Origin: Gautieria morchelliformis
Taxonomy: Eukaryota > Basidiomycota > Agaricomycetes > Gomphales > Gomphaceae
Assembly: GCA_015179125.1 (NCBI GenBank)
Contig: WHVA01000110.1
Span: 186,001-250,000 of the forward strand
DNA length: 64,000 nt
Direction: 5' to 3'
Positions 19,159-59,139 of this stretch are shown here, piece after piece. Made by a program: the position numbers and the translations under genes. The notes below the pieces were generated by a model that was not told where the DNA came from, ran no database searches, and was given only the letters and a program-made list of their open reading frames with translations. The first letter of the stretch is position 1. Each line of letters opens with the position of its first letter.

Positions 19159-20960
19159 CTCCATTCTGCCCTCGTCTCATTTTCACAAGTCACATCTTCA
19201 CGCAGACTTATGGTGCCCCTTGTCGCAGTGTTTGGCTGCGTACCCGACATCCTACCATCTGCTTCATGCCTTTCTCTACCTCGAGTACAACCGAACTTTG
19301 CCCTTGTTCCCGCCGCCCAGATCGTATCCTTTTTTCAGCTCCTACAGCAGTGTATACTAGCAATTGATACCAGTGACTTATATATTATAATTTGAACTTC
19401 TAAGCAGTGATTGGACACTGATGAGCAGTGCCAATTGTACTTAAAGTCATTTTGTTTACTGCACATCAGCGTGCATCTTCCAACTTTGCCGCAGCTTCAT
19501 TGAAGCCACTGCGGACCAGTATCCGAGCACTGGTCCGCAATGGTTTCGACACTTGTTATCAGTCCCTCTGGAACTGATGACAAGTGCCTTTCTTCCTGCA
19601 GTGGTCTGAGCTTTCCTGGGTGCCCCCGCCGGATTCCCTGGCGTGGATCATTTCCCCCTGCCAGGCATGATGGAACGGGGACATGTACTGTTAATCAGCG
19701 ATATCTGCTGTTTATCAGCGGCAGGTAGTACTCACCACTGGCTACATGTTGCGGGTCTGCCCTGTGTCGGTGTTCGAGGCTGTGAGGTACAGGTTGGCTG
19801 TGGACAGCATCAGTCAGCACGGCCGGGTACCAACCCGTGGTGGTGCACGCTGGTGGCCAGCGCTGTGCACCAGCAATTACCACCGTTTAGCACCACGCGG
19901 TGCTAACCCCTATGAACCGTGTATAACTCTTGGACCTTATGACTCTCATTGGAAAATTGGTCTTACGGTTTGAACCTTGGTCTAAACCTACAACTTTTCT
20001 CACGAAGCTGCTTTAGAACTGCGAGTTTAGGATGTTAGGGCTATGGTAAGTCACCCAATGTTGCTTATATTTAGCTCGGGAGCCAACCAGTTACCAAGGG
20101 AGCTGACATGCTTCACAACAGCTACAAATATCTCCAATCTGAATAATCAAATGTCTCAGCATCCAATACCGTTTATTCTCGCTAGGCACTGTCTCATTCT
20201 AATAATATCATCAACGTCACAGATCACCTCAGTAGCTTCCTGGGCTTTCCTGGGCCACCGAGCACAGCTCTGCATCGCCGTCACATCCAATACAATGAAT
20301 GCTCAGCCTTGCGGATACCATGTTGTTGTGCTCCAAGTTTAAATTTGATAGTCCCTTCCTAGCACTTCTTTCCACGTCGTACAGGACATCTCCCGAATGA
20401 GAGTTGTCTCGTGTCGCCACATCAAGCAACGTTGACACGAACTGATGCCGCTTCCGAGATCATCCAGCATCGCTAAGAATTACAGCCACATGCATGCATA
20501 CTCTGGTGTATCAGCTGACCAGGCTAGATCTCCCATATCATCTCGCTTCCTCATGTTCTCAGCTTCATTAGTAAACCACTGGAGATGTGTCATCTTAATA
20601 CACATCAATGAGCTTTATTGCAGTGTTTTCATGTGCCGCTATGCTGACACTTCACTATGAGTCGTCAATGAGTGTTAATTGTGCTCACACGACGACAAGT
20701 TTAAATGGATTTGGGAGACCATTCCGCCCAGGAAAATCGGATGCACTAACCAATTCCTGGAAGGCCTCAATTGCTCGCCCGAGCAGCTAACTATACTTTT
20801 CCGATGCTTCTATGTTGTAATGCTAGCTTTAATTCTTTTAAATATGATGTTCTTCTATCAGACCCATCCGCATCGCAGATTGTGCCATGCTGAGGGACTG
20901 ATATAGGCTACTGTGAATATCTGTTGACCTGGCAGCACCCATGGCCAGAATCCTACATAT
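19159..20960. other. No recognised gene; hairpin-rich stretch at 19500-19925
   Basis: There is no supported ORF. Several short inverted repeats cluster here: GCGGACCAGT with ACTGGTCCGC (about 19511-19536), CACTTGTTATCAGT with ACTGATGACAAGTG (about 19550-19585, one mismatch) and TAGCACCACGCGGTGCTA (about 19888-19905, near-perfect palindrome). The remainder shows no pattern I can name. Confidence 0.5.
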
Positions 20961-21607
20961 TGTTACGACCGTTCATTTCCAACTTCCGACCTCCAGTTCC
21001 GCAACACTTTCCGCCCCTCCGATATTTCCGACATTCCTCCCCTTGTACATTTCCCTTGTTCTTTTGACTCTATTACTCGGACCCACCGGACCCACCTCAC
21101 CATTCATCAAGACCATATATCCAGTCACCCTTGTAGTTCGTTGTCAGATATGTTTTCCCGACCCCTTGTTCTTTGCCATTGTTCTACCTTACCCTGAACC
21201 CCCCTTGTAGTCCCATTGTTCCCAATTAGTTAGTTCCCACGCATTGTCTACTCGACTTCCGCTTCCCCCGGAACTTGCTTAGTATCATACCATTACTTGT
21301 TGTTTCTGCGCTTTGTATAAAACCCCCTCATGTATGTCTGTTATTCTGCAATCAGATAATCACCTTCGATACTTGATTTCCTTCGCTCCATCTCCTGTTC
21401 TTAGTACAGCGAGTCTAGCAAGACCTCAGTCTCTCCACCTTCCGCCTCAGTTCTGACTCAAGTTCCAACCAACCTTTGGTTCAGACCTTTCCGACTTCCG
21501 ACTCAGTTCCGAAATACTTAGGACGATAGTTCATTGGGGGTGCAACCTACAAGTTGAAGCCGCTGTCCTTTCCAGTTCCGACTTAGTGGAAATCTCGATA
21601 CGTAACA
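20961..21607 (+). mobile_element. Solo LTR of the Gypsy-2 family
   Basis: It begins TGTTACGACCG and ends GATACGTAACA, homologous over its length to the Gypsy-2 LTRs but in the opposite orientation to the element that follows. The flanks (ACATAT and CTGCC) do not form a target duplication. It retains the TTCCG-rich 5' part. Confidence 0.85.
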
Positions 21608-22108
21608 CTGCCTTTCATCAGCCAACCTACCCATCTTCTATCCTACACGTGACCTCATGTGACTTGCAGCTTACTAAGCTGCTAATCCCAGCTAGGGTTA
21701 TTCACTTACTTTAGTGTCTAATTCCTTGTTAAGTAGTTACTTTACTGCTTAGCCACTTGGACTAATCCTCCGGGTGTAATTCTACAGAGTGAGTCTGTCA
21801 ATTGAAAGTCTTGCCATTCACACTCCAATACCTGAGACGATTTGATCAGTCGATGTTCCTGATTAGAGACTTTCACAAGTCGCTTTGTTCACAAAACTCG
21901 TCCCTCATTTTATTGCAGTGCGCTGGTAGATTATCAGGGCAGTCCATTTATAAATTTGCCTGCTAAGTACTTTCCCTTATATTTTGGAGTACGCTTGGAC
22001 CCCGATACTGTCCTTGAACCTACAGTCTTTTAGTTTATTGTTCAGTGCTGCTAAGAAACATATTGCCTTCCATCCATATTAACTTGGACTAGTCCTTATG
22101 TGGATTGC
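21608..22108. other. Unassigned 0.5 kb between inverted Gypsy-2 LTRs
   Basis: No ORF of note and no recognised repeat. It contains scattered ACTTAGTT-like and TTACTT-like AT-rich stretches only. Confidence 0.4.
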
Positions 22109-22769
22109 TGTTACGTATCAAGATTTCCGCTAAGTCGGAACTGGAAAGGACAGCGGCTTCAACTTGTAGGTTGCACCCCCAATGAACTATCGTCCTAGGT
22201 ATTTCGGAAATGGGTCGGAAGTCAGAATGTACTGAACTGAAGGTTGGTCGGAACTTGAGATGGAATTGAGGCGGAAGACGGAAGACGGAAGGCAGAGAGA
22301 CTGAGGTCTTGCTAGACTCGCAGTGCTAAGAACAGGAGATGGAGCGAAGGAAATCAAGTATCGAAGGCGGTTATCTGATTGCAGAATAACAGACATACAT
22401 GACAGGCTTTTATACAAAGAGCTGAGACAACAGGTAATGGGGTGGTACTAAGCAAATTCCGGGGGAAGCAGAAGTCGAGTAGACAATGCGTGGGAACTAA
22501 CTAATTGGGAACAATGGGACTACAAGGGGGGTTCAGGGTAAGGTAAAACAAGGGCAAAGAACAAGGGATCGGGAAAACATATCTGACAATGAAACACAAG
22601 GAGGGCCGGACATATGGTCTTGATGAACGATGAAGTGGGTCCAGTTGGTCCGAGTAATCGAGTCGAAAGAACAAGGGAATAGAACAATGGGCGGAATGTC
22701 GGAAATATCGGAGGGGCGGAAAGTGTTGCGGAACTGAAGGTCGGAAGTCGGAAATGAACGGTCGTAACA
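22109..22769 (-). repeat. Gypsy-2 3' LTR
   Basis: TGTTACGACC...CGTAACA in element sense, 661 bp. It differs at a number of positions from the 654-bp partner LTR, so the element is older than copia-1. CGGAA pentamers are frequent throughout. Confidence 0.9.
22692..22761. promoter_or_regulatory. Array of eight CGG triplets in the Gypsy-2 U3
   Basis: CGG occurs on the plus strand at 22692, 22700, 22709, 22717, 22729, 22742, 22749 and 22759, mostly as CGGAA. In element sense this is the start of U3, where enhancers usually lie. It is also 130-200 bases upstream of the ATG of the opposite-strand gene at 22890. The same array is visible in the LTRs ending at 30007 and 59117 and, with some losses, in the one starting at 20961. 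Confidence 0.6.
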
Positions 22770-22889
22770 GTATCTCCCTTCTAAGGTCGAGCCCCGTAAG
22801 ACCACAGGTCGGATCACATGACTTGTGAACAAACGTGTCGGAGTTTGAAAGATAGGTGGGAAGCAGAACACGTCTTGTCCTGATCCAAC

Positions 22890-24149
22890 ATGAACTCCCA
22901 ACCTGACCTCTCGAAAATGTCCAGCGCCGAGATGAAGAAGTATTTCGACGACCTGCTTGCACAGAAGGAGCTGGCAGAAAAGCAAGCGGTTGAGGAAGCT
23001 GCGTGGAAAGAGAAGGAACGGCTGGAGGAGGAGCGCAGGGAGAAGGAGCGCAGGGAACAAGAGCGTCGGGACCAGGAACGGAAGGAGAAGGAGGAGAAGG
23101 ACTGTAAACACCGCGAGGAGGAGTCATGTCTCTGCGAGGAACAGCGGAAAAGAGACGCGGCCAAAAAAGCTGCGGCGGACAAGGCCGCGACGGAAAAGGC
23201 AGGAAAACAACAGGTGAGTCGGAAACATTGTGTGAGGAGTTCCGAGGTTTGACAGGAAAACTGGCAGAGGATTGTCGAGTCCGAATCTGAAGCGGAATCG
23301 GAAAGCATGGCGGAAAGGATGCCATCCCCTGAGGGTAAGGGGAAACAAAAAGATGTCACCCCTGTGCTGAATCTTGTTGCGGAGTGGAAGCAGAGGGCGG
23401 ACAAATTCCAACAGGCCAGGAAGAACAAGCTGGCCAGCATGTTGGATTTACGGGAATTGGGACCGGAGAATCCCGCGACACGGAAGCGGAAAACAAGGGA
23501 CGGCGAGGAGGAGAAGGGTCCTTGTGACACGTGCGAGGTCAAAGGCTTGGACTGCATGTGGTCGGCAAATCCACGGGAAACGGCCTGCAAACGGTGCCAG
23601 GACAAGAAGAGGTGTTGCGTAGTGGACGGGTGTGCCATGAGGGTGGAGTGGAAAAGGCGCAAGGTCGAGACCGAGGGGCCTGAAACCCCAATGTTGAAAC
23701 CGGGACCGAGCGGAGGGAAGTCTGCAGGGAGGTTTCCGGTGACCGGAAACTCGGAGGCAGCGGTCCTAAACCGCTTCACGATGGCGTCACCGCTACTTGA
23801 TATTGCCAGATCGTTAAGGGGTATCCGGAAAACACAAGGCGGGATCCGGAATATCCTTGCGGAGATGGCGGAGGTTCAACAACACCAGTTGTTGTCATTC
23901 CAAAACCAAATGACCGTTATGTCCACGGTCTTGGAACAGTTGAAACGGGAGTTCCGGTGGCGGAACGATATGCTCTGGGACCAAATGGAGTTACGAATGC
24001 GGGAGCAGGAGAATGAGGTGGAAATGGGTCCGAGTCAAAAGGCGGATGCGAGGGTGGAGACAGAGTTGGTGAGCGTTGAAGTGGGACATGCAGAAGAAGG
24101 TCCAGAAGCGGAGAACAAGGGCGAGGGGGGAACAATGAGGGAGGAGTAG
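22890..24149 (+). CDS. Antisense accessory gene of Gypsy-2: coiled coil plus Zn2Cys6-like cluster
   Basis: Exon 1 is 22890-23213 and exon 2 is 23256-24149, giving about 405 residues; the 42-nt intron starts GTGAGT and ends GACAG and joins the two frames in phase. Residues 15-105 are a highly charged Glu/Lys/Arg helix, probably coiled coil. Around residues 198-229 is a cysteine cluster with spacing CX2CX6CX10CX2CX6C (CDTC, GLDC, ACKRC, KRCC), which fits the Zn2Cys6 rule, flanked by basic runs (RKRKTR, KRRK) that could be nuclear signals. A further helical segment near residues 300-370 may be a second coiled coil. The function is not known; DNA binding is inferred from the cluster. The gene converges on the chromodomain end of pol and is intact although pol is broken. 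The short intron is the least certain part. Confidence 0.65.
23214..23255 (+). other. Predicted 42-nt intron in the antisense gene
   Basis: GTGAGT donor after a complete CAG codon, acceptor GACAG, no frame change on removal. Without splicing, exon 1 reaches a TGA at 23250-23252. It is at the short end for fungal introns. Confidence 0.55.
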
Positions 24150-24258
24150 GTGTTGAGAGACTTGTAGATATTTTTCTTGAGGTGTCAGAAAATAGTATAA
24201 TGGAGAATTAATCGGATTTTGACATATGACTTGAGAACTGTAAGAAATTAATGGGGTA

Positions 24259-27200
24259 TCAGAAATGAGGTCGGAATTGACTAAGGCGCGGAATGGGGCC
24301 AGGCTTATCAGGATATGACTTGTGAAAATCAGAGACGAGGTCAGAAGTGTGGTCTAGTTCCGTGGCGGAAATCCACGAGGTCTCTTCGTCAGTGTTTTCA
24401 TAGCCTGCCCACTTGACTAGGTACTGGAGTTCGCAGCGGTATCGTCTGTGAGCTTTGAGTTGAGAATCTCCAAGATCTCTATTCCGGTTCTCCATCGACA
24501 ATGACTGGCAGAGGCGGAGGTTGTTCTTGATTCAGAATTGTATTCAGAACTGCGGCTCAAGCATGGAGACATGGAATACCGGGTGTACTGCGCGCATATT
24601 GTCAGGGTCTGAGAGTGAAAGAATGACTGCCGGCCTTAGCGATGATCTCGTAAGGGCCAAGGTATTTTTCAGAGAGCTTCTTCGAGGGGCGAGTGGTGCG
24701 GAAGTTTTCAGCTTTGACAAAGACTTTGTGCCTATCTCGAATGCCGGTTGCGGAAGTCGTTTCCGATCGGCGGAAGTTTGGTATCTCTTCTGGGCAGCGG
24801 ATATGTTCTCTCGGAGGTGCTGGTGAAGGTCGTCAAGTTCTACAACGAAATCTCAGGGTCTTGCAGAGGCAAGGTCGCGTTCAGGGTGGATGGCGAGATT
24901 CGGGTGGTAGCCCTTGTTGGCGTAAAAGGGTGAAATTCCGGTGGTGCGGAAGGCGCATTGTTGTAAGCAAATTCCGCAGCGGAAGGAGGTCGGACCAATT
25001 GCTGTGTTGGTAGTTGCAATAGACGCGGAGATACTGCTCAAGGGTCTGATTAGTACGTTCCATTTGTCCGTCTCCTTCGGGATGATAACCGGAAGTGAAG
25101 TGGAGCTTCATGTCGAGAGCCTTGCCGAGTGTGCGGAAAAAGGAGGACATGAATTCTGATCCACGGTCGGAAGTCACATGGGAAGGATTCCGTGCTTGGA
25201 AAAGACGTGGAGCACGAAGAGTTGTGCGAGCTGGGCGGAAGTGATGGTGTCGTAGGTCGAATAAAGATGGACTGCTTTGTGAGGCGGTCAACGATAACTA
25301 GAATGGTATCATAGCCAGATGACTTAGGAAGTTTCTCAATGAAATCCATGGATATCGAATTCCACGGTTGTTCCGGGATCGGAAGTTGCTTCAGGAGGCC
25401 GTAGGGTTTGTGACGTTGAGGCTTGGCTCGCATACAGGTGGTGCATGACTTGCAATAGTCTTGGACCATTGTGCGGAGGAGAGGCCAAGTGTAGGTACGT
25501 CGGATTATGTCGAGGGTTTTGTTCTGGCCTTGGTGTCCTGAGAGCGGATGATCGTGGCTTTGCTGGAGTACGCGAAGTCGTAGATCATTGGTATCCGGAA
25601 CGTAGATCCGGGACTTGTACCGGAGAAATCCGTCGGAATCGAGGGACCATCCAGGACTGGTGGGGTCATCGAGGTGGGCTGCGGAGATGGGGTCGGAACA
25701 GAGTGCGGAACGGATGTCGGAATGGAGAGACTCGGTGTCCATAATGATTGAGGCGCGGAGTAGCGGAAACTGCAATGCTGTGGCACGCAGGGACGATGCC
25801 AGTTGCTCAGTGGAGAATACTGGGGGAAGTTGTGCGGATTAACGCTGGCATAGTCGCTACTTCCCTCTTTTGGGTAGACGTCCCAACGTCTAGTGAGCGC
25901 GTCGGGTTTTGCTCCGAGCTTTCCGGGGCGGAAGCGGATCACCATGTTGAACTGTGAGAGATATTCAGACCAGCGGACTTGACGGCGAGTCAAAATCTTA
26001 GTAGTCGCGAAATACTCAAGGTTCTTATGATCCGTTACAACGTCGATCGGATAAGTTGGACCTTCGAGGTAGTGTCTCCAGATTTTGAAGGCTTCGAAAA
26101 TCGCAAGTAGTTCCTTATCGTGGACGTCGTAGTTGAGTTCCGGGGCGGAAAAGGTGCGGGAATGAAAGGCGATCGGATGAATTTCTCCGTCGTCGGGGGA
26201 AATGATGGAAAGAATGGCGGCTAGCGCGTAGTCGGAAGCGTCGGTTTCGAGTACAAGTTGGGCATCAGGAATCCAGAAACCGAGTATGGGAGCCGTAGTG
26301 AAGGCCGATTTGAGGGCTTCAAATGCGGAACGGCATTCCGGAGTGAAATTCCATGGGGCACCCTTCCTGGTGAGACGCGTGAGCGGAACAGTAATGTCGG
26401 AAAATTATAAATGAAACGCCGGTAAAAGTTGGCGAAGCCAAGGAAAGACTGCACATCCTTAACACGTCGGGGTTCCGGCCATTCTTGAATTGCCTTGACT
26501 TTGTCCTCTGCCATGGTGAGACCTGTAGGAGAGAGGATGTAGCCGAGGTATTCGACCGTGTCGCGATGCCATTCGCATTTCTCTGCTTTTGCGTAGAGGT
26601 GGTGTTTGCGTAGACGGCGGAGTACTTCACGGACATGTTCCCGATGTTTTTCCGGTGTGTCGGAATAGATGAGGATGTCGTCAATGTAGACTAGGACGCA
26701 TACGTCGAGAAGGTCGGAAAATACGTCGTTCATGAATCGCTGAAAAGCGGCGGGAGCATTGGTTAGACCGAAAGGCATGACAACCCACTCAAAAGCACCG
26801 TAGCGGGTGCGGAAAGTGGTTTTCCACTCGTCACCTTCCCGGATGCGGACAAGGTGATAAGCGTGCCGGAGGTCAATTTTGGTGTAGATCTTCCCCTGCG
26901 GGGAGTGTCGAGTAGGTCGGAAATGCGCGGAAGCGGATATTTGTCCTTTTAGTGAGGGCATTGAGTCCGCGGAAATCGACGCAGAGGCGGAGAGATCCAT
27001 CCTTCTTCTTGACGAAAAGGACCGGAGCGCCGTGCAGAGACAGCGAAGGGCGGATGAAGCCCATGTTGAGATGTTCATCGACGAACTCGTGGAGAGTTTG
27101 GAGTTCACTTTGCGAAAGAGAGTAGATCGGTCCAAGGGGCGGAGATGCTCCTTCTTCCAAATCTATCTTCAAATCGTAAGGTCGATGTTCAGCAGGTTTA

Positions 27201-28122
27201 TCGGCTTTGGCCTTATTGAACACATCCGGGAAGTCACGATATTCTTCCGGAACTGAGCTCATGTCGACCGGAGCGGAAGTCGAGGCGGAACGAGCCTTGA
27301 CTGAAGCCGAGTCGGAAAGGTGAAGCTGGAAAACGGTCGTATCTTCTTGCCGTTGCAATACGCGGAAAGCGGTGGCGGAAACGAGCGCAATTCGAGGAGC
27401 TTCGAGGGCGGAGGTGCTAAAGCGGGACCGGAGTGCGGAACTGAATCCATGAGCGGAGTTGCAGAAGAGGCTGAGCCATCTTTGCGGACGACGTCGGAAT
27501 AGACGGAAGTTGATCCGGGGTACGGAACTGTATTTGACCCAATGCCCAGTTAATCGACGGATTATATCGGGTGAGCCAATTGTGTCCTAGTACAACGGAA
27601 CAGCTAGCATCTAGCGGAGTAACGTAAAACGTAACTTCATGGTTGTCCCCAGTAGCGAAACGGATAGACAGGTCCACGACTTGGGAAATTGCCGTGTTGG
27701 ATGACCCGTCGAAAAGGCGGAGCGGAATTGTCGGAATGTTGCGGGTCGGAAGTTTATGTTTCAAAACAAAGTCGGAATCGAGGAAACAATGAGTCGAACC
27801 GGAGTCGATCAATGCTGTAAATGGGGGTGCGGAAATGGTGTCGGAAGTGAGCGGAACAGAGAGGGAGTCGGAGGACGAAAGAGCGGATGCGTTGAGTTTA
27901 ACCTCGTTTGTCGCACGAATGGGGTCAACACAGCCCTCAGCTCGTGCGGAGGCCGGAGGACTGCTGACTATTTTTTTGCATCCATAGGGGAGCCGCTTCG
28001 GATTTCTCTTCCGTCTTTGCCGCACGGCCCTTGGCCTTAGCAGCGGAAGCGGAAGCTCGGGTGCAATCGCAGCGACGTGACCGCCTTTGCCGCAGAAAAG
28101 GCAAAGGTTGTTGTCCATGCAC
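24259..28122 (-). pseudogene. Gypsy-2 Pol with chromodomain, multiply frameshifted
   Basis: In minus-strand order: a protease (ALIDSGSTHCFLDSDFV), RT ([22 protein letters not shown], split by a frameshift near 26880, then [12 protein letters not shown] with catalytic YIDD), RNase H in another frame (about 26240-25900; HDKELLAIFEAF, HKNLEYFATTK), the integrase finger and core (HDHPLSGHQGQNK, CTTCMRAKP, SMDFIEKLP, VTSDRGSEF, GDGQMERTNQ) and finally a chromodomain (LQYLVKWAGYENTDEETSW, 24500-24259). Reading needs at least five frame changes, so the protein is not made as is. The chromodomain places it among chromoviruses, which target chromatin marks. Confidence 0.88.
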
Positions 28123-29320
28123 GTGGCATTCTGCGGGGTTAGTTTTCCGTCCTTCCCAAGTTTGTCGGAAAGGTCTGGAGTGCTCTTCCGGGCATTGGTG
28201 TTGGAACCAGAGGCCTGGTTATTGCGAGGGGTGGAGTTGTTGTTCCGGTTGCCGGAGTTGGATCCGGAACTGTTGTTGTTGTTGTTTCCAGAGTTGTTGT
28301 TTCTGGAATTAGTCTTCTTCTTGTCTTTGTCAGACTTCTTGTCGGAAGACTTGTCGTTCTTGCTCTGGGCGGAGTTTTGTGAGCAATCTCGGAGTGTCTT
28401 TCCCAGTAGCGCGAATCGATGGATTGGGCTAAATTGCGAAGGTCGGTAAGGGTGGCGGGTTTTCCGATGTGGGCAATTTCATCCTTGATCCGGGCAAGCC
28501 CATGTAAAACTGGCGTCGGAGTGCGGCTTCTCCCCATTGGACTCGAGGAGCGAGCTGCTGGAATGTGACGATATATTTAGCTATCTTATGAGTGTCTTTC
28601 ATACGAAGCTTATCAAGTTCATTTTCCATGTTGGCTTCCATATCAAATGGTCCGAAGTTGCTGCGGAGTTCGGAAACGAAGTTGTGGTAATCGTTGGCCC
28701 AGTCGACGAGAGTGAACAGGTCCATAAGGGCGGGTTCGAAGTAGTCGAGAGCCGTGCCTCGGAGATAGGAAAGGGCGTAATTGACCTTTCGGATCGTGGA
28801 AGTTGAGTTGAAGCTGGACCAGAAATGGCTGGAGCTTCTTGGGGTCAGAACCATCGAACTGATCTGATTCACGGACTTTGGTCTTGGGGCGTGGTGGTGC
28901 TTGGGCCGGGCACTGAAGTTGGCCAGCTAGCATGGTGATGGCTTGTGCAAGATCCGGACCTGGCACTTGCGGAACTGGGTTGGCGGGAATAGGTGGGATT
29001 GGAGGTGGAGGACCGCCGGGTGGGCCGCCTGGGGGTGGTCCTGGTGGAGGTGGTGGTGGTGGAGCTGGGCGTCGGAATGACGCTGCTGTTTGTTCGCTGC
29101 TGCTACTTGTCGAATTCCCGTCATAGTCGGGATTGTCGTCGGGATTAGCGTCGGGAACTTCTTCGAAACGTGGTGGAATCACGTCGGAGAGCTCATCGTC
29201 TGCACGAGAGCTGCCTGAAGGTTCCGTGTGCCTTGGTGCTGCGGATCTAAGACTGCCAAAATAAGAGAGAGCTTCGACAGCTCCTGCTTGAGCTGAAGTA
29301 GCTGTGGTACGAGGAGGCAT
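28029..29320 (-). pseudogene. Gypsy-2 Gag, frameshifted
   Basis: It starts with MPPRTTATSAQAG at 29320, has an acidic/Ser region, then a long Pro/Gly run (PPPPPPPGPPPGGPP), then a gag core (ESDQFDGSDPKKL, shifting frame near 28840 to YALSYLRGTALDYFEPAL, LRSNFGPFDMEANME and QQLAPRVQWGEAALRRQF), and ends with a CCHC-like knuckle (CLFCGKGGHVAA) near 28100 whose last Cys is in another frame. At least three frame changes are needed. Confidence 0.8.
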
Positions 29321-29353
29321 AGCGATAGTTATCGGGTGGGAATCAGATAATAC

Positions 29354-30007
29354 TGTTACGTATCGAGATTTCCGCTAAGTCGGAACTGGAAAGGACAGCG
29401 GCTTCAACTTGTGGGTTGAACCCCCAATGAACTATTGTCCTAGGTATTTCGGAAATGGGTCGGAAGTCGGAATATACTGAACTGAAGGTTAGTCGGAACT
29501 TGAGGCGGAGTTGAGGCGGAAGATGGAAGGCGGAGAGACCGAGGTCTTGCTAGACTTGCTGTGCTAAGAACAGGAGGTGGAGCGAAGGAAATCAAGTATC
29601 GAAGGCGATTATCTGATTGCAGAATAACAGACATACATGACAGGCTTTTATACAAAGAGCTGAGACAACAGGTAATGGGGTGGTACTAAGCAAATTCCGG
29701 GGGAAGTGGAAGTTGAGTAGACAATGCGTGGGAACTAACTAATTGGGAACAATGGGACTACAAGGGGGGTTCAGGGTAAGGTAAAACAATGGCAAAGAAC
29801 AAGGGGTCGGGAAAACATATCTGACAATGAGACACAAGGAGGGCCGGACATCTGGTCTTGATGAACGGTGAGGTGGGTCCGGTGGGTCTGAGTGATAGAG
29901 TTGAAAGGACAATGGAATAGAACAATGGGAAGAATGTCGGAAATATCGGAGGGGCGGAAAGTGTTGCGGAACTGAAGGTTGGAAATCGGAAATGAACGGT
30001 CGTAACA
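29354..30007 (-). repeat. Gypsy-2 5' LTR
   Basis: 654 bp with the same ends as the 3' LTR. It abuts the remaining 191 bp of the copia-2 LTR. It contains the conserved CGG-rich U3 start (about 29935-30002). Confidence 0.9.
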
Positions 30008-46959: not shown

Positions 46960-47960
46960 TGTGCATTCGTGTATGTCACAGGTCCGTTCAGACATAACAT
47001 ATTGCCCCAAGACAGCGGGGATGAATGCCGAAAGCGTTAGTCAGAAGCTGAGCCGCCAATCTGGCCGTGGCATCATGACATACACGGGAACTGGTGGATC
47101 CAGGAATGCTTTCCAGATATTCGTGCACGCCGCCCTCTTTCCGAGTATGACAAAAGCGGCGATGGGCAGGTGATATGCAAATTTCAAATATTCGTGGCAT
47201 CATAACATACATGTTTGATTCAGCTGTGGGTGTGTATGTTCACCCAAGTCGCAAGTCCTTCCCGACAGGTGCACGTTCATGCATATCATGTGTCCATTCC
47301 AACCTGCGCACGTCCATGTGGTTCACAAGTCTGTCCCGACGTGATGTGTTGCCCGATACAGTGGGATGAATACAATGTGAATCGTGGAACTGACTGTCGC
47401 TACGACGCACAAGCTGTATGCTGTGTTCGCAAGCATGGGGAGGGGGGTACGCTGACGCATGAAGTAATGGAAACGATGTGGGGCTTACTTACTGCTCGAC
47501 TATCCATGCCGAACCCCAACGGGTCGGGTAGTCGTCCGAACTGAGCATTCACTCACAGAAATACCTGAGCATTTGCTCACGGAAACACCTGAGCCTACGC
47601 TCAAGGAAGCACCTGAGCCTTCGCTCACGGATACACCTGAGCCTCCGCTCATGGAAACACCTGAGCCTGAGCCTACGCTCACGGAAATGCCTGAGCCTTC
47701 GCTCACGGAAACACCTGATCCTTCACTCATGGAAAACACCTGAGCCTACGCTCACGGAAACAACTCGTCCCTCTCTTGGACAGATACTAGCATAATGTTT
47801 GACCGTCCACGTCAGACCCTAACGGGTCGGGGAGTCATCTGAATCGCGTATCGATACAAGTCACAAGTCCATCCGGACATGCGCATGTCCATGCACGTCG
47901 CAGGTCTATCCAGAGATGACATGTTGCCCCAAACAGCGGGGGTGAATACGACACCGGTCA
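46960..47960. repeat. Three dispersed copies of a second repeat
   Basis: Blocks of the form CACAAGTCCGTCC...GACATGACATGTTGCCCC, then ACAGCGGGGGTGAATAC, occur at about 46970-47030, 47320-47375 and 47895-47955. A CCGAACCCCAACGGGTCG-like phrase recurs near 47510, 47815 and 48015. The whole 46-48 kb stretch is repeat-derived and has no convincing gene. Confidence 0.65.
47546..47763. repeat. 24-bp minisatellite, about nine units
   Basis: The unit is close to CCTGAGCCTACGCTCACGGAAACA with base changes between copies. One plus frame reads an eight-residue repeat of the type PEPSLTET through most of the array, and substitutions largely keep the frame until a one-base insertion near 47730. Confidence 0.85.
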
Positions 47961-52855: not shown

Positions 52856-53345
52856 TGTAAGGGCAACCCTGGCTGGTTGTGGAGATCACACTACCACACA
52901 ACTGACAAGGGGAAATCCAAAGTATGTATAAATGAATAGAGCATACAAGAGAGGGGATTCTCACCTGACAAGGGGAAATCCAAAGAGAAAAGTCTAAGGA
53001 CCCCCAATGTCAGCGAGCCCGTATTATACTACACTGCGCAGCCAGGGACAACACTTGGCACCCGCCATCAACCCTGCATCTCCCTGACCACCCTGACCCT
53101 TGATCGACCCTTGATGCCACCTATTACGCCAGTCGCTTGATTTCCAACACTGTTCCGAGAGTGGAAGTCGGAAATTGGAGTGGAACTGGCGAGGCGAACA
53201 GAACTGGTGGAAGTTCTCCCAGAAGCGGAATCATTTCCGAAAGCGGAGGCGGAGATGGAATCAGGACCGGAAGCGGAGTTGGAAATGGAGTCGGAACTGG
53301 GTGTGGTGTCGGAACTGGAAATGGAACACAGGGTGTCCCCTGACA
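52856..53345 (-). repeat. Gypsy-3 copy A 3' LTR
   Basis: 490 bp. Element sense begins TGTCAGGGGACACC and ends TTGCCCTTACA. The pol frame runs 278 bases into it. A 20-bp direct repeat (TGACAAGGGGAAATCCAAAG on the plus strand) occurs twice about 65 bases apart. Confidence 0.93.
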
Positions 53346-56300
53346 TCACCCCCCCTCTAGCGTGCTGCATCCTCGAAGCACGGGACACGAGGGATTGAAA
53401 TGCCAGTGAGCGGATTCGGCGAGGGGCACCGGGGTGTGTCCTATAGAACTCACGGAGTTTGTCTGGAGTGGAAACATCTGGCTCCGGGACCCACGAATTC
53501 TCCTCGTACCCATACCCTTCCCATTTCACGAGGAATTGGAGTCGCCCTCGCACCAACCGGCTGTCCAGGATCGGTTCCACCACATAGTGCTCTTCCCCAT
53601 CTACAATTTCCGGCGGAGGTGGCGGACGAGCCTTCTGACCTGGAATTGGGTCCTCAAGCACAGGGAGTAACTTCACCACGTTGAAGACGGGGTGGAGGCG
53701 GGACATGGACATCGGAAGTCGGAGGCGGTATGCATTCCGTCCAACCCTCCGCGTCACCGTGAAGGGCCCAAGGTAGCGGTGGGCAAGCTTCTGCCAAGGG
53801 CGTGTGGTGCGGATGTCACTTGCATCTAGATACACCTTGTCTCCAACTTGGTACTCTGGGGCAGGAACCCGGCATTGGTTGTAGTACCTTGCCATGTCAT
53901 CCTTGGCCTTTGCAAGGGCCAACTTGGCTTCCGAAAGGGTGGAGTCCATGCGGTCTCGGAACTCATTGACCGTCTCGAGTCGGGAGTCAGCCTGGCATGG
54001 CTCGAAGCCCATCCGCGGGTGTCGTCTGGAGTCAAGCATGAAGGGAGTCTGTTGTGTGGCGGAATGTACATGGTTGTTGTATTGGAATTCCGCCAGTGGA
54101 AGTAACTCATCCCAGTCATCCTGCCTCTCGTTGACAAAGAGGCGGAGGTATTGCTCCAACTCCTGATTGACCCGTTCCGTCTGTCCGTCACCCTGCGGAT
54201 GGTATGCTGTGGTGGTAGCCAGCTTTATGCCGAGCAGGCGGTAGAGCTCCCGAGTCAGTTCCACGACAAACTGCACACCTCGGTCGGAAACAACTTGCTT
54301 CAGGAGCCCATGCAACTTCCAGACATGTGCAAGGAACAGGCGGGCCGCTCCGAGGGCTGTGATCATCGTGTGTGTCGGAATGAAGTGGGACACCTTGCTT
54401 ACCGAATCCACGACGTTCATGATCGCGTCGTAGCCATGATACTCTGGGAGTTCAACGATGAAGTCGACACTGATGGTGTCCCAGCGGGATTCGGGAATCG
54501 GGAGCGGAACAAGTTCTCCGACGGGCGGATGTCGTTGTGCTTTAGTTCGGAGACAAAGGTCACATGTCTTCACGTACTGTCCAATGTAGCGGGACATCTG
54601 GGGCCACCAGTAATTCCGAGCCACTAACTCCAGCGTCTTCCACCTGCCAGCATGCCCAGCGACCCGTGTGTCATGGTGCTGGGACACAATGCGGCAGCGG
54701 AGGTCTGCCCCACCTGGAACATAGACCTTGCCTCTGAAGTGGAGCAGTCCATCACGTTCCGACCATTCCGCTGCCCGTACAGACCGTGAGTGCCCTTTCC
54801 GAAGTTCCTCCACTGCCTTCACCACCGACTCCTCCTTCTCTCCATTCCGGTACTGCCTCCGGATATCCCGGAGCATTTCCGCTTCCACCCCAACTGCAGT
54901 CACTCCCTCTAGGGCACGGATTGCAAAGAGACTTGGGCGCAGCACTGTCATATCCGCGTTGTCTCCACTTCCACTTCCATGATCCGCACGGCGGGATAGG
55001 GCATCGGGCTTGCCCATGGTGCAGCCGGGCCGGTGGTGGAGCATGAAGTCGAACCGGGACAGGTGTAGGGACCACCGTGCTTGTCGTCGGTTCAACTTCT
55101 TGGATGTGCGGAAATACTTGAGGTTTTTGTGGTCTGTCCAGATCTCAAACGGGCATAGAGCACCCTCGAGGAAATGTCGCCACTCCTCCAGCGCTCGGAT
55201 GATTGCCAGCATCTCTTTGTCGTGGATCTCATAGTTCCGCTCAACCGGACTAAGGCTTTTAGAGAAGAAGGCAATTGGATGCCATCCCCCATCATCTTCC
55301 GATGATTGTTGTGACAAGACCGCTCCGGTAGCTGTGTCGGAAGAATCCGCCTCGACTCGATAAGGGCGAGAGTCATCAGGAAAGATTAGGACCGGGGCAG
55401 ACGTGATCAGCTCCTTGAGTTTGTCAAAGGAGGCCTGTTCCGGCTCTCCCCACTGCCATCCAACCTCCTTCTTGGTGAGGTTGAAGAGGGCACGAGCGTG
55501 GCAGGAGAAGTCCTTGATGAACCGCCGGTAGAAATTGACAAACCCAATGAAGGACTGGACCTCCTTCTTGTTCCGCGGCACAGGCCACTCCGATACACCA
55601 GAAACTTTGACTGGGTCCATTTCCACCTTTCCTTCCGACACAATCACCCCAAGATACTCTATCCGCGTCCGCTCAAATTCGCACTTTTCCGGCTTGAGAC
55701 ACAGGTTGTACTTCCGGAGCCGTTCCAGCACTCTCCGCACGACTTCCCGATGTTCGGACATTGTTTTTGTGAAGATGAGGATGTCATCGAGGTAGACGCA
55801 GACAACCCCTTCTGCTATCATGTCACGGAAAATGTCATTCATCATCGTCTGGAATGTGGCGGGACTGTTGGTGAGGCCGAAGAACATGAGCTGCGGCTCA
55901 AAGAGTCCTCGGTTGGTGCGGAATGCGGCCTTCCACTCGTCTCCCTCTCGGATCTGAACATTATTGAAGCCCCAGCAGACATCCAGCTTAGTGAAGTACC
56001 TTGCCCCGCGGAGTTGTGTGATTAGTTCGGAAATGAGTGGAATGGGGTACCGGTTCTTGATTGTGATCGCATTCAAGGCCCGGTAATCCTGCACAAGTCT
56101 GAGCGAGCCGTCCTTCTTCTTGATGAAGAACACCAGAGATGCCATGGGTGACTTGGAGGGGCGGATCCTCCCTGTACGGAGGTTTTCCGCAAGGAATGCA
56201 TCAAGCTCTACCTGCTCCTTGGGTGACAGCGGGTAGACTTTGCAGTTGGTGGGCTTTGACCCAGGCTCCAACTCGATGGCGTGGTCCCACAGCTTCCGTG

Positions 56301-57273
56301 GAGGCAGGGCATCAAACGACTCCTTGGAAAAGACATCCTCGAACTCCCGCAGGTACTCCGGAATTTCCGCCTCCGCTCTATCATGCTTCTTGGAGGCTTC
56401 AGCAAGGCGTTGCGAAATATTTCTGGTGGCACGGATGTGTTCCGCTTCTGGCAGAAGGTTTACGTACAGCAAGCGCTCCCCTTCTGCCAGAGTGTCTTCC
56501 GGGCCGAGTCGGATGACGTCGGAATCGGAATCGGAATCGGAATCGGAATTGGGAGTGGGATCCAGTTCAGATTCCGCTTCCGAGTCTTCTTCTGCAAGCA
56601 GTGGATGGGGGCCAGAACGACATGTCTGTATGAGCCGTTCGGTCTTCCGCTCCTCCTGGCGTTCCTTCCGCACTTCCGACCGGCACATGTGACACTTGGC
56701 TGGACATCGACTCATCAGTACCTTCCGAGTCTGCCAATTGATCTCCGGGTTGTGCTCCTGAAGCCAGGTAAACCCGAGGATGATGTCTTGCTTCCCCAGG
56801 CTGGTGACTGCAAAGGAAGTGCGTTCTGTGTGTCCGTCGTAGCGGAGAATTGTGTCTACTATCTCTGTGATAGACCTTGCTTCACTGGGGCTTCCATCCA
56901 CATTGAACACCGGGATTGCATGTTGCAACTTCCACGTGGTCAGTCGGTTCCGTTCCACATAGTCCCGGTCCATAAACTGACCAGTGGCCCTGCAATCGAC
57001 AAGGGGGGGTCCGGATTTGACTTCCGCCGTATCTGTCGTCTGGATCTCCACCTTAATGACTAGTGACTTGGGGCCAGGGGTGGCAGCAACAACATAGCGC
57101 TTCGGGAGGCGTCTCTCCCAAGGGCGGATGTGGGATGGATGGGGTGTCGGATTTGGTTTTTGTGTGACTTTATCCGGTGGGTCTGTACGAAGTGAGGGGT
57201 GTGGGGGCTTTTCATTCTCTACTTCAAGACAGGCAAACCGGTTATGTACAGGCAGCAGGGGCACACATATCAC
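53068..57273 (-). CDS. Gypsy-3 Pol with chromodomain, full-length frame
   Basis: A 1401-codon open frame that begins at the gag stop in the -1 frame (first codon is not ATG). The protease region has DCRATGQF at 93-100, where relatives have DSGATG or DCGATG, so a glycine next to the catalytic Asp is Arg. A Ser-Asp repeat lies at 243-252. RT has [11 protein letters not shown] and catalytic YLDD at 494-497. RNase H (EADSSDTATGAVLSQ, HDKEMLAIIRALEEW), the integrase finger (HHDTRVAGHAGRW, CDLCLRTKA) and core (SVDFIVELP, VVSDRGVQF, GDGQTERVNQELE) keep all three acidic residues. The chromodomain is LQFLVKWEGYGYEENSWVPE. The last 92 or so codons are polypurine-tract and LTR sequence, giving a Ser/Asp/Gly-rich tail. 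Confidence 0.9.
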   Translation of the reverse strand: MICVPLLPVHNRFACLEVENEKPPHPSLRTDPPDKVTQKPNPTPHPSHIRPWERRLPKRYVVAATPGPKSLVIKVEIQTTDTAEVKSGPPLVDCRATGQFMDRDYVERNRLTTWKLQHAIPVFNVDGSPSEARSITEIVDTILRYDGHTERTSFAVTSLGKQDIILGFTWLQEHNPEINWQTRKVLMSRCPAKCHMCRSEVRKERQEERKTERLIQTCRSGPHPLLAEEDSEAESELDPTPNSDSDSDSDSDVIRLGPEDTLAEGERLLYVNLLPEAEHIRATRNISQRLAEASKKHDRAEAEIPEYLREFEDVFSKESFDALPPRKLWDHAIELEPGSKPTNCKVYPLSPKEQVELDAFLAENLRTGRIRPSKSPMASLVFFIKKKDGSLRLVQDYRALNAITIKNRYPIPLISELITQLRGARYFTKLDVCWGFNNVQIREGDEWKAAFRTNRGLFEPQLMFFGLTNSPATFQTMMNDIFRDMIAEGVVCVYLDDILIFTKTMSEHREVVRRVLERLRKYNLCLKPEKCEFERTRIEYLGVIVSEGKVEMDPVKVSGVSEWPVPRNKKEVQSFIGFVNFYRRFIKDFSCHARALFNLTKKEVGWQWGEPEQASFDKLKELITSAPVLIFPDDSRPYRVEADSSDTATGAVLSQQSSEDDGGWHPIAFFSKSLSPVERNYEIHDKEMLAIIRALEEWRHFLEGALCPFEIWTDHKNLKYFRTSKKLNRRQARWSLHLSRFDFMLHHRPGCTMGKPDALSRRADHGSGSGDNADMTVLRPSLFAIRALEGVTAVGVEAEMLRDIRRQYRNGEKEESVVKAVEELRKGHSRSVRAAEWSERDGLLHFRGKVYVPGGADLRCRIVSQHHDTRVAGHAGRWKTLELVARNYWWPQMSRYIGQYVKTCDLCLRTKAQRHPPVGELVPLPIPESRWDTISVDFIVELPEYHGYDAIMNVVDSVSKVSHFIPTHTMITALGAARLFLAHVWKLHGLLKQVVSDRGVQFVVELTRELYRLLGIKLATTTAYHPQGDGQTERVNQELEQYLRLFVNERQDDWDELLPLAEFQYNNHVHSATQQTPFMLDSRRHPRMGFEPCQADSRLETVNEFRDRMDSTLSEAKLALAKAKDDMARYYNQCRVPAPEYQVGDKVYLDASDIRTTRPWQKLAHRYLGPFTVTRRVGRNAYRLRLPMSMSRLHPVFNVVKLLPVLEDPIPGQKARPPPPPEIVDGEEHYVVEPILDSRLVRGRLQFLVKWEGYGYEENSWVPEPDVSTPDKLREFYRTHPGAPRRIRSLAFQSLVSRASRMQHARGGVMSGDTLCSISSSDTTPSSDSISNSASGPDSISASAFGNDSASGRTSTSSVRLASSTPISDFHSRNSVGNQATGVIGGIKGRSRVRVVREMQG
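56521..56550. repeat. GGAATC hexanucleotide run coding for Ser-Asp repeats
   Basis: Five near-perfect copies. On the coding strand they read TCCGAT, giving the SDSDSDSDSD stretch of Pol. Confidence 0.85.
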
Positions 57274-59139
57274 CCGCTGCGCGTCACAAAATCCGACGCA
57301 TCTTCCACCTCCAATGCGCCATGTTCCGCATTTTCGGAAATTCCTTCCACAGTGGGCACTCCGCTTATGTCTGCGAGTGCGAGGAACTCTGGAAGGAGCT
57401 CAAGCTTCTCCTCTGTGGTCATAAGCCGGATGTCAAAGGCTTGGGGGCACTCGCGGGCATAGTGGCCTGGTTGTCGGCATCGGAAGCAGGTGATGGCTCC
57501 GTGGCCTTTTCCGCGCATGCGGTCAACATCCATCGGGGCAGGGCCACTCTTCGAGGGAGGGGGGCTAGGGTTCCTAATAAGAGCAGGCGGAACAACCATC
57601 AGAAATACTTTCCGTGTGGGAACAAATGCACTTCCGGGTTATGGCACGGGTGGAGCAGGACGAGCGGAACTGCATGTCATGTTCCGGTTTGTCTCCACAA
57701 AGGCCTCGTTTGCTTCCTGTTTCGGGACACCCTTCGCGCAGCTTGGTACCACCCTTCCGGGTCATCGAAATCCGGAGCTCCATCCCCAAGCAGCGCAACT
57801 TGGTTCTGGAGTGTCGGATCAAGCCCTCGTCGGAATTTGATGACGATCATCTTGTCATCGTCATACTCCGCAAGGTCGATGAGCTCCTGGAAGCGGTCAA
57901 TGTAGTCATCGCCCACATCCTTGGCCAGGTACCAGCTGGTCCCCTCGAGCTTCGTAAGGGCTGTGAGCTGCTCATTTTTTGGGCAGAACTGGTCGGAAAA
58001 TGTTTTCTCGAAGGCATCCCAGTCCCGGAAGTAGTTCCCCTTGCCCTTTGCTTCATGTCGGATCACCTTGTTTGCAAAATGGGCTGCGCGATCCGACTTG
58101 AAAAAGGACAATGTCCAGTGAATCCGAGCCTGGTCGTTCAGAAAGAGGTCTCCGACAATTGCGAAGTAGATGCTGCATGTGTTGAAGAATGCGCATCCCT
58201 TCTCCCGATCTCCGTCAAAGTCCGCCGGAGTTGCGGGTTTGACCTTTGCCAACTTTGCGGACATCCTCTCTTCCGCCAGTTCCGCTTTTCCGAAATCCGG
58301 CTCATCCAGCATTACATTTCCACCACCTTGTGGAATATCTAACTTAGCCAAAATCGTTTGTAAGGCTGTTTCAATCGCATCGGTCTTCATCCGGTTCCGC
58401 ATCAATTCCTCCTCCATATTCCGAAGGTGTTACGTATCGAGATTTCCGCTAAGTCGGAACTGGAAAGGACAGCGGCTTCAACTTATAGGTTGCGCCCCCA
58501 ATGAACTATCGTCCTAGGTATTTCGGAAGTGAGTCGGAAGTCGGAAAGTACTGGACCAAAGGTTTGGTTGGAACTTGAGTCGGAACTGAGGTGGAAGACG
58601 GAATACGGAAGGCTGAGAGAGACTGAGATCTTGCTAGACTCGCTGTGCTAAGAACAGGAGATGGAGCGAAGGAAATCAAGTATCGAAGGTGATTATCTCA
58701 TTGCAGAATAACAGACATACATGAGGGGGTTTTTATACAAAGTGCAGAGCAACAAGTAATGGTGTTGTACTACGCAAATTCCGGAGGAAGCGGAAGTCGA
58801 GTACAATGTGTGGGAACTAACTATTGGGAACAATGGGACTACAAAGGGGGTTCAGGGTGAGGTAGAACAATGGCAAAGAACAAGGGGTTGGGAAAACATA
58901 TCTGACAACGAACTACAAGGGTGACCGGATATATGGTTTTGATGAACGATGAAACGGGTCCGGTGGGTCTGAGTAATAGAGTCGAAAGAACAAGGGAGAT
59001 GTACAATGGGCGGAATGTCGGAAATGTCGGAGGGGCGGAACGTGTGGCGGAACTATCGGAGGGGCGGAAGGAGTTGCGGAACTGAGGGTCGGAAGTCGGA
59101 AATGAACGGTCGTAACAGAAGGCGATCATCCGGATCCAT
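57270..59139 (-). pseudogene. Gypsy-3 copy A Gag, interrupted and frameshifted
   Basis: It starts MDPDDRL at 59139 and is interrupted by a Gypsy-2 solo LTR with duplication CCTTC (element sense). It resumes as NMEEELMRNRMKTDA, VKPATPADFDGDREKG, FFNTCSIYFAIVGDLF, SFFKSDRAAHFANKV and LIDLAEYDDDKMIVIKF to about 57710. Frame changes near 57700 and 57650 lead to the C-terminal part (57599-57270), with a CCHC knuckle (CFRCRQPGHYARECP) and a Leu-rich tail. Its stop overlaps the open pol frame by a few bases, so expression of pol would need -1 frameshifting; no classic slippery heptamer was seen there. Confidence 0.82.
58428..59117 (-). mobile_element. Gypsy-2-family solo LTR inside Gypsy-3 gag
   Basis: 690 bp, TGTTACGTATCG...CGTAACA on the plus strand, flanked by the perfect duplication GAAGG (58423-58427, 59118-59122). 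It is longer than the other copies because of an expanded CGGAA-rich stretch near its U3 start (about 59030-59080). Confidence 0.95.

Follow-up and report, generated by a model that had tools for sequence, protein, structure and literature searches.

The window, as we call the whole stretch of 64,000 nucleotides that was analysed, carries on its minus strand a retrotransposon, termed gypsy-2, that spans positions 22109-30007. Its 5' LTR (29354-30007, minus strand) has the ends TGTTACG...CGTAACA and contains a CGGAA array at about 29938-29990, and its 3' LTR occupies 22109-22769 (minus strand). Pfam searches on the minus strand detected, in this order, a reverse transcriptase piece (RVT_1, PF00078, E 9e-35; 26224-27135), integrase pieces (rve and Integrase_H2C2, PF17921, E 2.2e-20; 24884-25775) and a chromodomain (PF00385, E 2.2e-7; 24262-24501). 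An ORF piece at 28643-29320 on the same strand was assigned to the N-terminal part of gag from its position. With reverse transcriptase, integrase and a C-terminal chromodomain in one sense unit between two LTRs, gypsy-2 is a Ty3/gypsy chromovirus. In the window copy gag-pol is split over several frames, and no clean target-site duplication was seen around this copy, the 5' LTR of which abuts a copia LTR. A TATA-like sequence at 22408-22416 (minus strand), picked out by eye, is a candidate for gag-pol transcription. Over all of 22109-30007 the plus strand has 33% G and 19% C, regardless of which strand is coding. Two solo LTRs of the same family are found in the window, one inverted and about 500 bp from the 3' LTR (20957-21608), the other inside a second chromovirus, gypsy-B (58427-59118).

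A further gene lies between the chromodomain and the 3' LTR on the plus strand and, since the element is on the minus strand, is antisense to gag-pol. It consists of exon 1 (22890-23213) with the ATG at 22890, an intron (23214-23267; GTGAGT...CAG) and exon 2 (23268-24149, stop included), and the predicted spliced product has 401 amino acids. At least 138 copies of the exon-2 ORF were scored in the species' own 122-Mb assembly, a lower bound given 722 candidates at first look, and by hand count 112 among the 138 exon-2 matches listed are free of internal stops. Among 30 fetched loci, 29 retain the GTGAGT donor; the intron has a branch-like YTSAC in most of them, and the acceptor reads NCAG. Introns are 49-57 bp long in 29 loci, and the exon-2 frame is preserved in 28 of these 29 even though many of the lengths are not multiples of three. 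This signature across copies suggests that the gene is spliced. The dN/dS analysis was done with 28 of the 30 loci, leaving out L030, whose upstream part is replaced, and L014, whose acceptor is out of frame. The median dN/dS is 0.17 over 378 pairs, and the antisense frame is stop-free in 20 of the 28 copies. We also considered, and rejected, that a different frame here encodes a gene: the five other frames give dN/dS values of 0.33-1.89 and are stop-free in at most one of 28 copies. Judged from these sequence comparisons, the antisense gene is almost certainly real and under purifying selection. An E-box-like TCACATGAC is present at 22814-22822, between the LTR and the antisense ATG; in this interval TCACGTGAC is exact in 19 of 30 loci and found in a CpG-decayed form in seven more (26/30), which suggests that the antisense promoter may also use a host factor.

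The predicted protein has a charged N-terminal part, followed by a Zn2Cys6-like cluster and then a coiled coil. The cluster C-x2-C-x6-C-x10-C-x2-C-x6-C, to which an earlier note on this DNA had drawn attention, is indeed encoded at 23523-23618 (plus strand), and scanning the window in all six frames revealed no other. Of 28 loci, 25 retain all six cysteines (L002, L010 and L028 each lack one), and the canonical Zn2Cys6 spacing, CX2CX6CX5-16CX2CX6-8C (PF00172), is likewise found in 25 of the 28. Membership in this class, as proposed in the note, is supported in part: a weak similarity to Zn_clus recurs at E <= 10 among the stop-free copies (19 of 20, the best at 9.3e-4), but most matches fall short of the Pfam cut-off, and the whole exon 2 of the window copy, alone among the 20, has no Zn_clus match at E <= 10. 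The cut-off is 21 bits; 70-amino-acid pieces of four copies reach 14.5-20.1 bits, and a 33-amino-acid piece of L005 reaches 22.7 bits. In three of three copies the first cysteine triad, taken together with the basic residues leading into it, aligns with the second half of Zn_clus (18.0-22.7 bits at model positions 7-36). For the second triad there is a weak match to the first half in two of three copies (E 2.7 and 4; positions 2-15), one of which also weakly matches CxC6 of KDZ transposases. Since the triads match the two halves in swapped order, the domain resembles a Zn2Cys6 that was permuted or had one half replaced. All 24 aligned pieces share a seventh cysteine (stretch 23523-23636), perhaps left over from a duplicated cluster whose outer halves were lost. 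AlphaFold predicts helix-strand-helix-strand for the cluster, with a pLDDT of about 70, and a long, coiled-coil-like helix for exon-2 residues 163-252 (23754-24023, plus strand), the middle of which is confident. Searches of the PDB by sequence gave insignificant matches only, and by fold no match. The profile matches weakly suggest that the cluster is a diverged relative of Zn_clus. Fungal Zn2Cys6 regulators (PF00172) share with the antisense protein the cysteine spacing, a basic second triad and a coiled coil after it; the antisense protein differs from them in its scores, in the order of the halves and in the seventh invariant cysteine.

Zn2Cys6 proteins contact CGG triplets, and eight CGG within 70 bp had been reported for the U3 of the 3' LTR. 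They are present from position 22692, in a CGGAA/CGG array at the start of U3 (22692-22765), with the gag-pol promoter side on one flank and the antisense gene on the other, and the only other site in the 64 kb with eight CGG per 70 bp is at 59011, in a solo LTR of the gypsy-2 family. The antisense ATG is found about 125-200 bp downstream, close to the 130-200 bp originally given. In the 5' LTR the array is upstream of gag-pol, also as described, and in the 3' LTR it faces the antisense 5' end; one array can therefore serve both promoters. The two U3s are not identical, however, as had been claimed: the LTRs of the window copy share 93.2% identity (those of another copy, L041, are 99.9% alike), and the array of the 5' LTR has six CGG versus eight in the 3' LTR. 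A second CGGAA array is located on the R/U5 side of the LTR (22249-22290). A recognisable LTR/internal junction was found in 27 of 30 copies, with 2-11 CGG in the 115 bp before it. In ten copies the last 100 bp of U3 hold 30-70 CGGAA per kb versus 8-13 per kb in the rest of the internal region, and in several of these ten the U5-side array is as dense as the U3 array, or denser. The LTRs average 30 CGG per kb and are no denser than the whole element (32.5 per kb), which by the refuting condition named in the note speaks against its interpretation. A further point against it is that gypsy-B, which is without the antisense gene, also has CGGAA arrays in its LTRs. An array of CGG restricted to U3 was rejected, as CGG is dense and CGGAA in excess along the whole element with U3 as the peak. 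The actual signal is not CGG, as first thought, but one exact word, CGGAA/TTCCG, throughout the element. A near-duplication of 29 bp in the U3 array is seen in L041 (identity 0.83), L049 (0.86), the solo LTR at 58427-59118 (0.86) and, weaker, L050 (0.76); it is absent from the window copy, L034, L035 and L038. At C2:271307-271551 there are about 20 copies of the 12-bp unit CGGAACGGAGTG, whose neighbours resemble a gypsy-2 copy, a local tandem growth of the word.

The whole L041 element contains 121 CGGAA, compared to 11 expected from base composition. For coding sequence, synonymous codons were shuffled 2000 times within stop-to-stop frames, keeping protein and codon usage. Relative to these shuffles the sense genes gag and pol are enriched in the word about 3-fold; for the antisense gene the factor is 1.6 to 2.2. 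The top-ranked 5-mer is CGGAA or TTCCG in all seven gypsy-2 ORFs ranked (three pol, two gag, two antisense), which come from related copies and are therefore not independent. Observed versus expected TTCCG counts are 39/11.8, 27/7.8, 16/5.1 and 19/5.2 in four pol ORFs and 11/3.2, 10/2.9 and 13/3.8 in three gag ORFs, reached in none of the 2000 shuffles. The corresponding CGGAA counts in four antisense ORFs are 17/8.9, 15/6.7, 10/6.4 and 12/7.2, reached in 2, 0, 157 and 32 of 2000 shuffles, the excess being weak in the last two. In gag plus pol of L041, counted on either strand, CGGAA is found 75 times versus 23, and its 15 one-letter variants, including those that contain CpG, are at 0.4-1.5 of expectation. 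TTCCG is raised in all three phases of L041 pol, CGGAA mainly in one phase of pol and two of gag, and the total CpG of this copy is 264/264.7 (observed/expected) in pol, 102/93.1 in gag and 77/70.8 in the antisense exon. When clusters are counted once, L041 pol has 31 sites versus 15.1, a second figure for gypsy-2 pol is 24 versus 10.7, and gypsy-B has 33 versus 14.4. Isolated sites were considered as evidence against the excess in pol (13 versus 13.2 in L041, 10 versus 9.2 in L049) and dismissed, being confounded by crowding; elsewhere their counts are 7 versus 4.5 (L041 gag) and 25 versus 12.7 (gypsy-B). Same-strand in-frame neighbours in L041 pol occur at random frequency (4 versus 4.1), so that slippage is not the source of the excess there. 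The plus-strand bias of CGGAA accompanies the G-over-C skew of gypsy-2. Since the word is enriched on both strands, the unit of selection would be duplex DNA rather than RNA. Genome-wide, triples of CGGAA with gaps of 1-8 bp number 5075+4750, versus 198+173 for the reversed pattern. The whole element has thus accumulated CGGAA, both in LTR arrays and, through the choice among synonymous codons, in the genes of either strand.

As controls we used 12 ORFs from six other element families. Neither the six from the window (copia, gypsy-A and LINE-like) nor the six gypsy ORFs taken from other parts of the assembly (L051, two ORFs of the gypsy-A family and three that belong to one other family) show an excess of CGGAA or TTCCG in the shuffle test, the best rank of either word being 72 (TTCCG, 4/1.9 in L052). 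The control L051 (C251:31900-35900) is the closest pol relative sampled, at 51% in pol; its own top 5-mers are TAGCT (10/1.8) and TGACA (16/5.5), maybe another word. Measured against these ORFs, all of them from transposable elements, CGGAA is very probably selected at the DNA level. Between L041 and seven other copies, C>T changes affect 5-16% of C at CpG and 2-4% elsewhere (2.5-4 times), a decay compatible with methylation. CpGs within the motif and other CpGs are kept at rates of 0.805/0.813, 0.831/0.809 and 0.833/0.804 with three reference copies (ten comparisons each), and with L032 as the reference those of the motif are kept less often (about 0.60 versus 0.76). CpG retention between copies gives no sign that CGGAA sites are protected, and since motif CpGs decay like other CpGs, differential decay did not make the excess.

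The second chromovirus shares the word. The pol ORF of gypsy-B (53068-57273, minus strand) runs into the LTR, whose U3 side with a CGGAA array is at 53140-53346 (minus strand), and such arrays are found at the U3 start in four LTR copies. In the one copy examined there is no room for an antisense gene, as pol reaches the LTR. Its pol is 42% identical to that of gypsy-2 and 52% to that of gypsy-A, and CGGAA ranks first among its 5-mers (33/8.8) and TTCCG third. On either strand CGGAA is found 57 times versus 19, with one-letter variants at 0.4-1.7 (highest TGGAA, 24/14), and both families show a similar weak 5' G/T preference at the word. Since gypsy-A and the other sampled families are without it, gypsy-2 and gypsy-B probably acquired CGGAA independently. 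No other finding weighs as heavily as this sharing against a wholly self-contained system, or as heavily in favour of a common reader of CGGAA.

Antisense genes beside the 3' LTR are known from plant gypsy elements: gene23 of Grande, an ORF of RIRE2 and TRP28 of Retand lie between pol and the 3' LTR, and their roles are unknown, although they are suspected to be regulators (PMC11963269, PMC7264820). The extra gene of gypsy-2 resembles them in position, orientation, retention in many copies and suspected DNA-binding regulatory function. Retand and Grande, however, are plant elements, Retand being a non-chromovirus with a TRP28 domain, whereas gypsy-2 is a chromovirus with a Zn2Cys6-like cluster. 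TRP28 (PF04195) is not among the Pfam matches of gypsy-2 in lists up to E 1 and 10; gypsy-2 thus works like a Retand element but is not one. Moreover, CGGAA is a candidate target word, and the cited passages describe none for Grande, RIRE2 or Retand (PMC11963269, PMC7264820). A second parallel is VANDAL of Arabidopsis (PMC5735166, PMC10398659), in which a short word is dense, arrays grow by tandem repetition and the unrelated AT9TSD1 also carries the VANC motif (PMC5735166); VANC proteins are the anti-silencing proteins of VANDAL, for which binding and demethylation have been demonstrated (PMC5735166). All three traits have a counterpart here. CGGAA is dense over gypsy-2, the 29-bp near-duplications in U3 correspond to the growth described for VANC targets (PMC5735166), and outside gypsy-2 the word is in excess in gypsy-B but in none of the six other families. 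The differences are that VANDAL is a DNA transposon with a mainly non-coding motif, whereas gypsy-2 is an LTR element whose word also resides in coding sequence via synonymous codons, and that VANC, whose binding has been demonstrated, belongs to another protein family than the predicted antisense protein of gypsy-2. Among fungi, chromoviruses with an unexplained 'add. ORF' and basidiomycete elements with dUTPase are on record (PMC2864245). They too are gypsy elements with a chromodomain, and the passages of that source mention no zinc cluster or antisense regulator. Among open-licence PubMed Central titles, abstracts and passages we came across none that we could identify as describing a fungal chromovirus that carries a Zn2Cys6 gene in antisense, though one may exist in print.

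The explanation that we favour, taken as a whole and held tentatively at slightly under an even chance, is that the antisense protein reads CGGAA to the benefit of its element, in the manner of VANC, and that gypsy-B is served in trans. A sequence-specific DNA-binding protein most likely reads the word to the advantage of gypsy-2; that this reader is the antisense-encoded protein seems to us evenly balanced. It would bind the arrays at the U3 start, and hence its own promoter in the 3' LTR and that of gag-pol in the 5' LTR, and also the CGGAA clusters through the body of the element, so that copies stay active or unsilenced as in VANDAL. The second family would exploit the same reader. If the antisense protein is the reader, its role is probably positive or anti-silencing rather than repressive. 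Weighing against this explanation are the presence of the word in gypsy-B without the gene, the weak Zn_clus match, the lack of a match by fold, the weak excess in two of four antisense ORFs and the unprotected CpGs of the motif. Nor did protein database searches find a relative outside this genome (nothing at E <= 0.001, and with an alignment nothing at E <= 1), so that gene and word are not traceable together across species. A bolder version, in which a permuted antisense Zn2Cys6 reads CGGAA, the whole element is a silencing-resistant binding platform and gypsy-B wrote the same word in order to exploit the protein, we give a minority chance.

The main competitor, to which we grant an appreciable minority chance, is a host DNA-binding factor, either an activator or one that excludes nucleosomes, for which two chromoviruses independently loaded sites while the antisense protein does another job. 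It would account for the exact word, and for the similar 5' preference, in an element without the antisense gene. Six other element families in the same genome are without the word, however, and the gene flanking the U3 array encodes a Zn_clus-like protein, of a class that contacts CGG; neither point is decisive. We consider it improbable that the antisense protein binds CGGAA but represses, as a copy-number or latency control, or that antisense RNA silences gag-pol. A regulatory role has been discussed for retroviral antisense products and aORFs, and a silencing role for antisense RNA (PMC7264820), and the U3 array can serve both promoters, but sites throughout the body and their sharing by a second family are hard to explain if a repressor costs copies, and a pure RNA role does not explain the dN/dS of 0.17. 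Finally, although C>T decay is concentrated at CpG and tandem growth does occur locally, a mutational or codon artefact is very improbable, codon-pair bias, CpG context and slippage having been rejected as origins in view of the phases of TTCCG in pol, the retention of motif CpGs, the variants that are not raised and the random neighbour counts, and the twelve control ORFs being negative.

In plant retrotransposons, antisense ORFs that adjoin the 3' LTR have long been a puzzle, their products being suspected regulators without a known target. To this puzzle the antisense gene of gypsy-2 brings a candidate target, one exact word of 5 bp whose enrichment can be measured against synonymous codons. 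Should its protein read the word, gypsy-2 would be a fungal LTR element with a system of the VANC type, in which coding sequence also serves as the binding platform and a second family cheats. Even if the reader were a host factor, a word on which two unrelated chromoviruses converged, and the six other families sampled did not, would be a clear trace of selection acting on DNA words in transposons.

Two further repeats in the window were noted. At 47516-47759 there is a 24-bp tandem repeat with CCTGAGCNTNCGCTCACGGAAA-like units, possibly coding. The segment 34018-34517 is LTR-like, belongs to the copia family located at 14-19 kb of the window and is nested as an insertion within the second copia element (30.0-35.3 kb).
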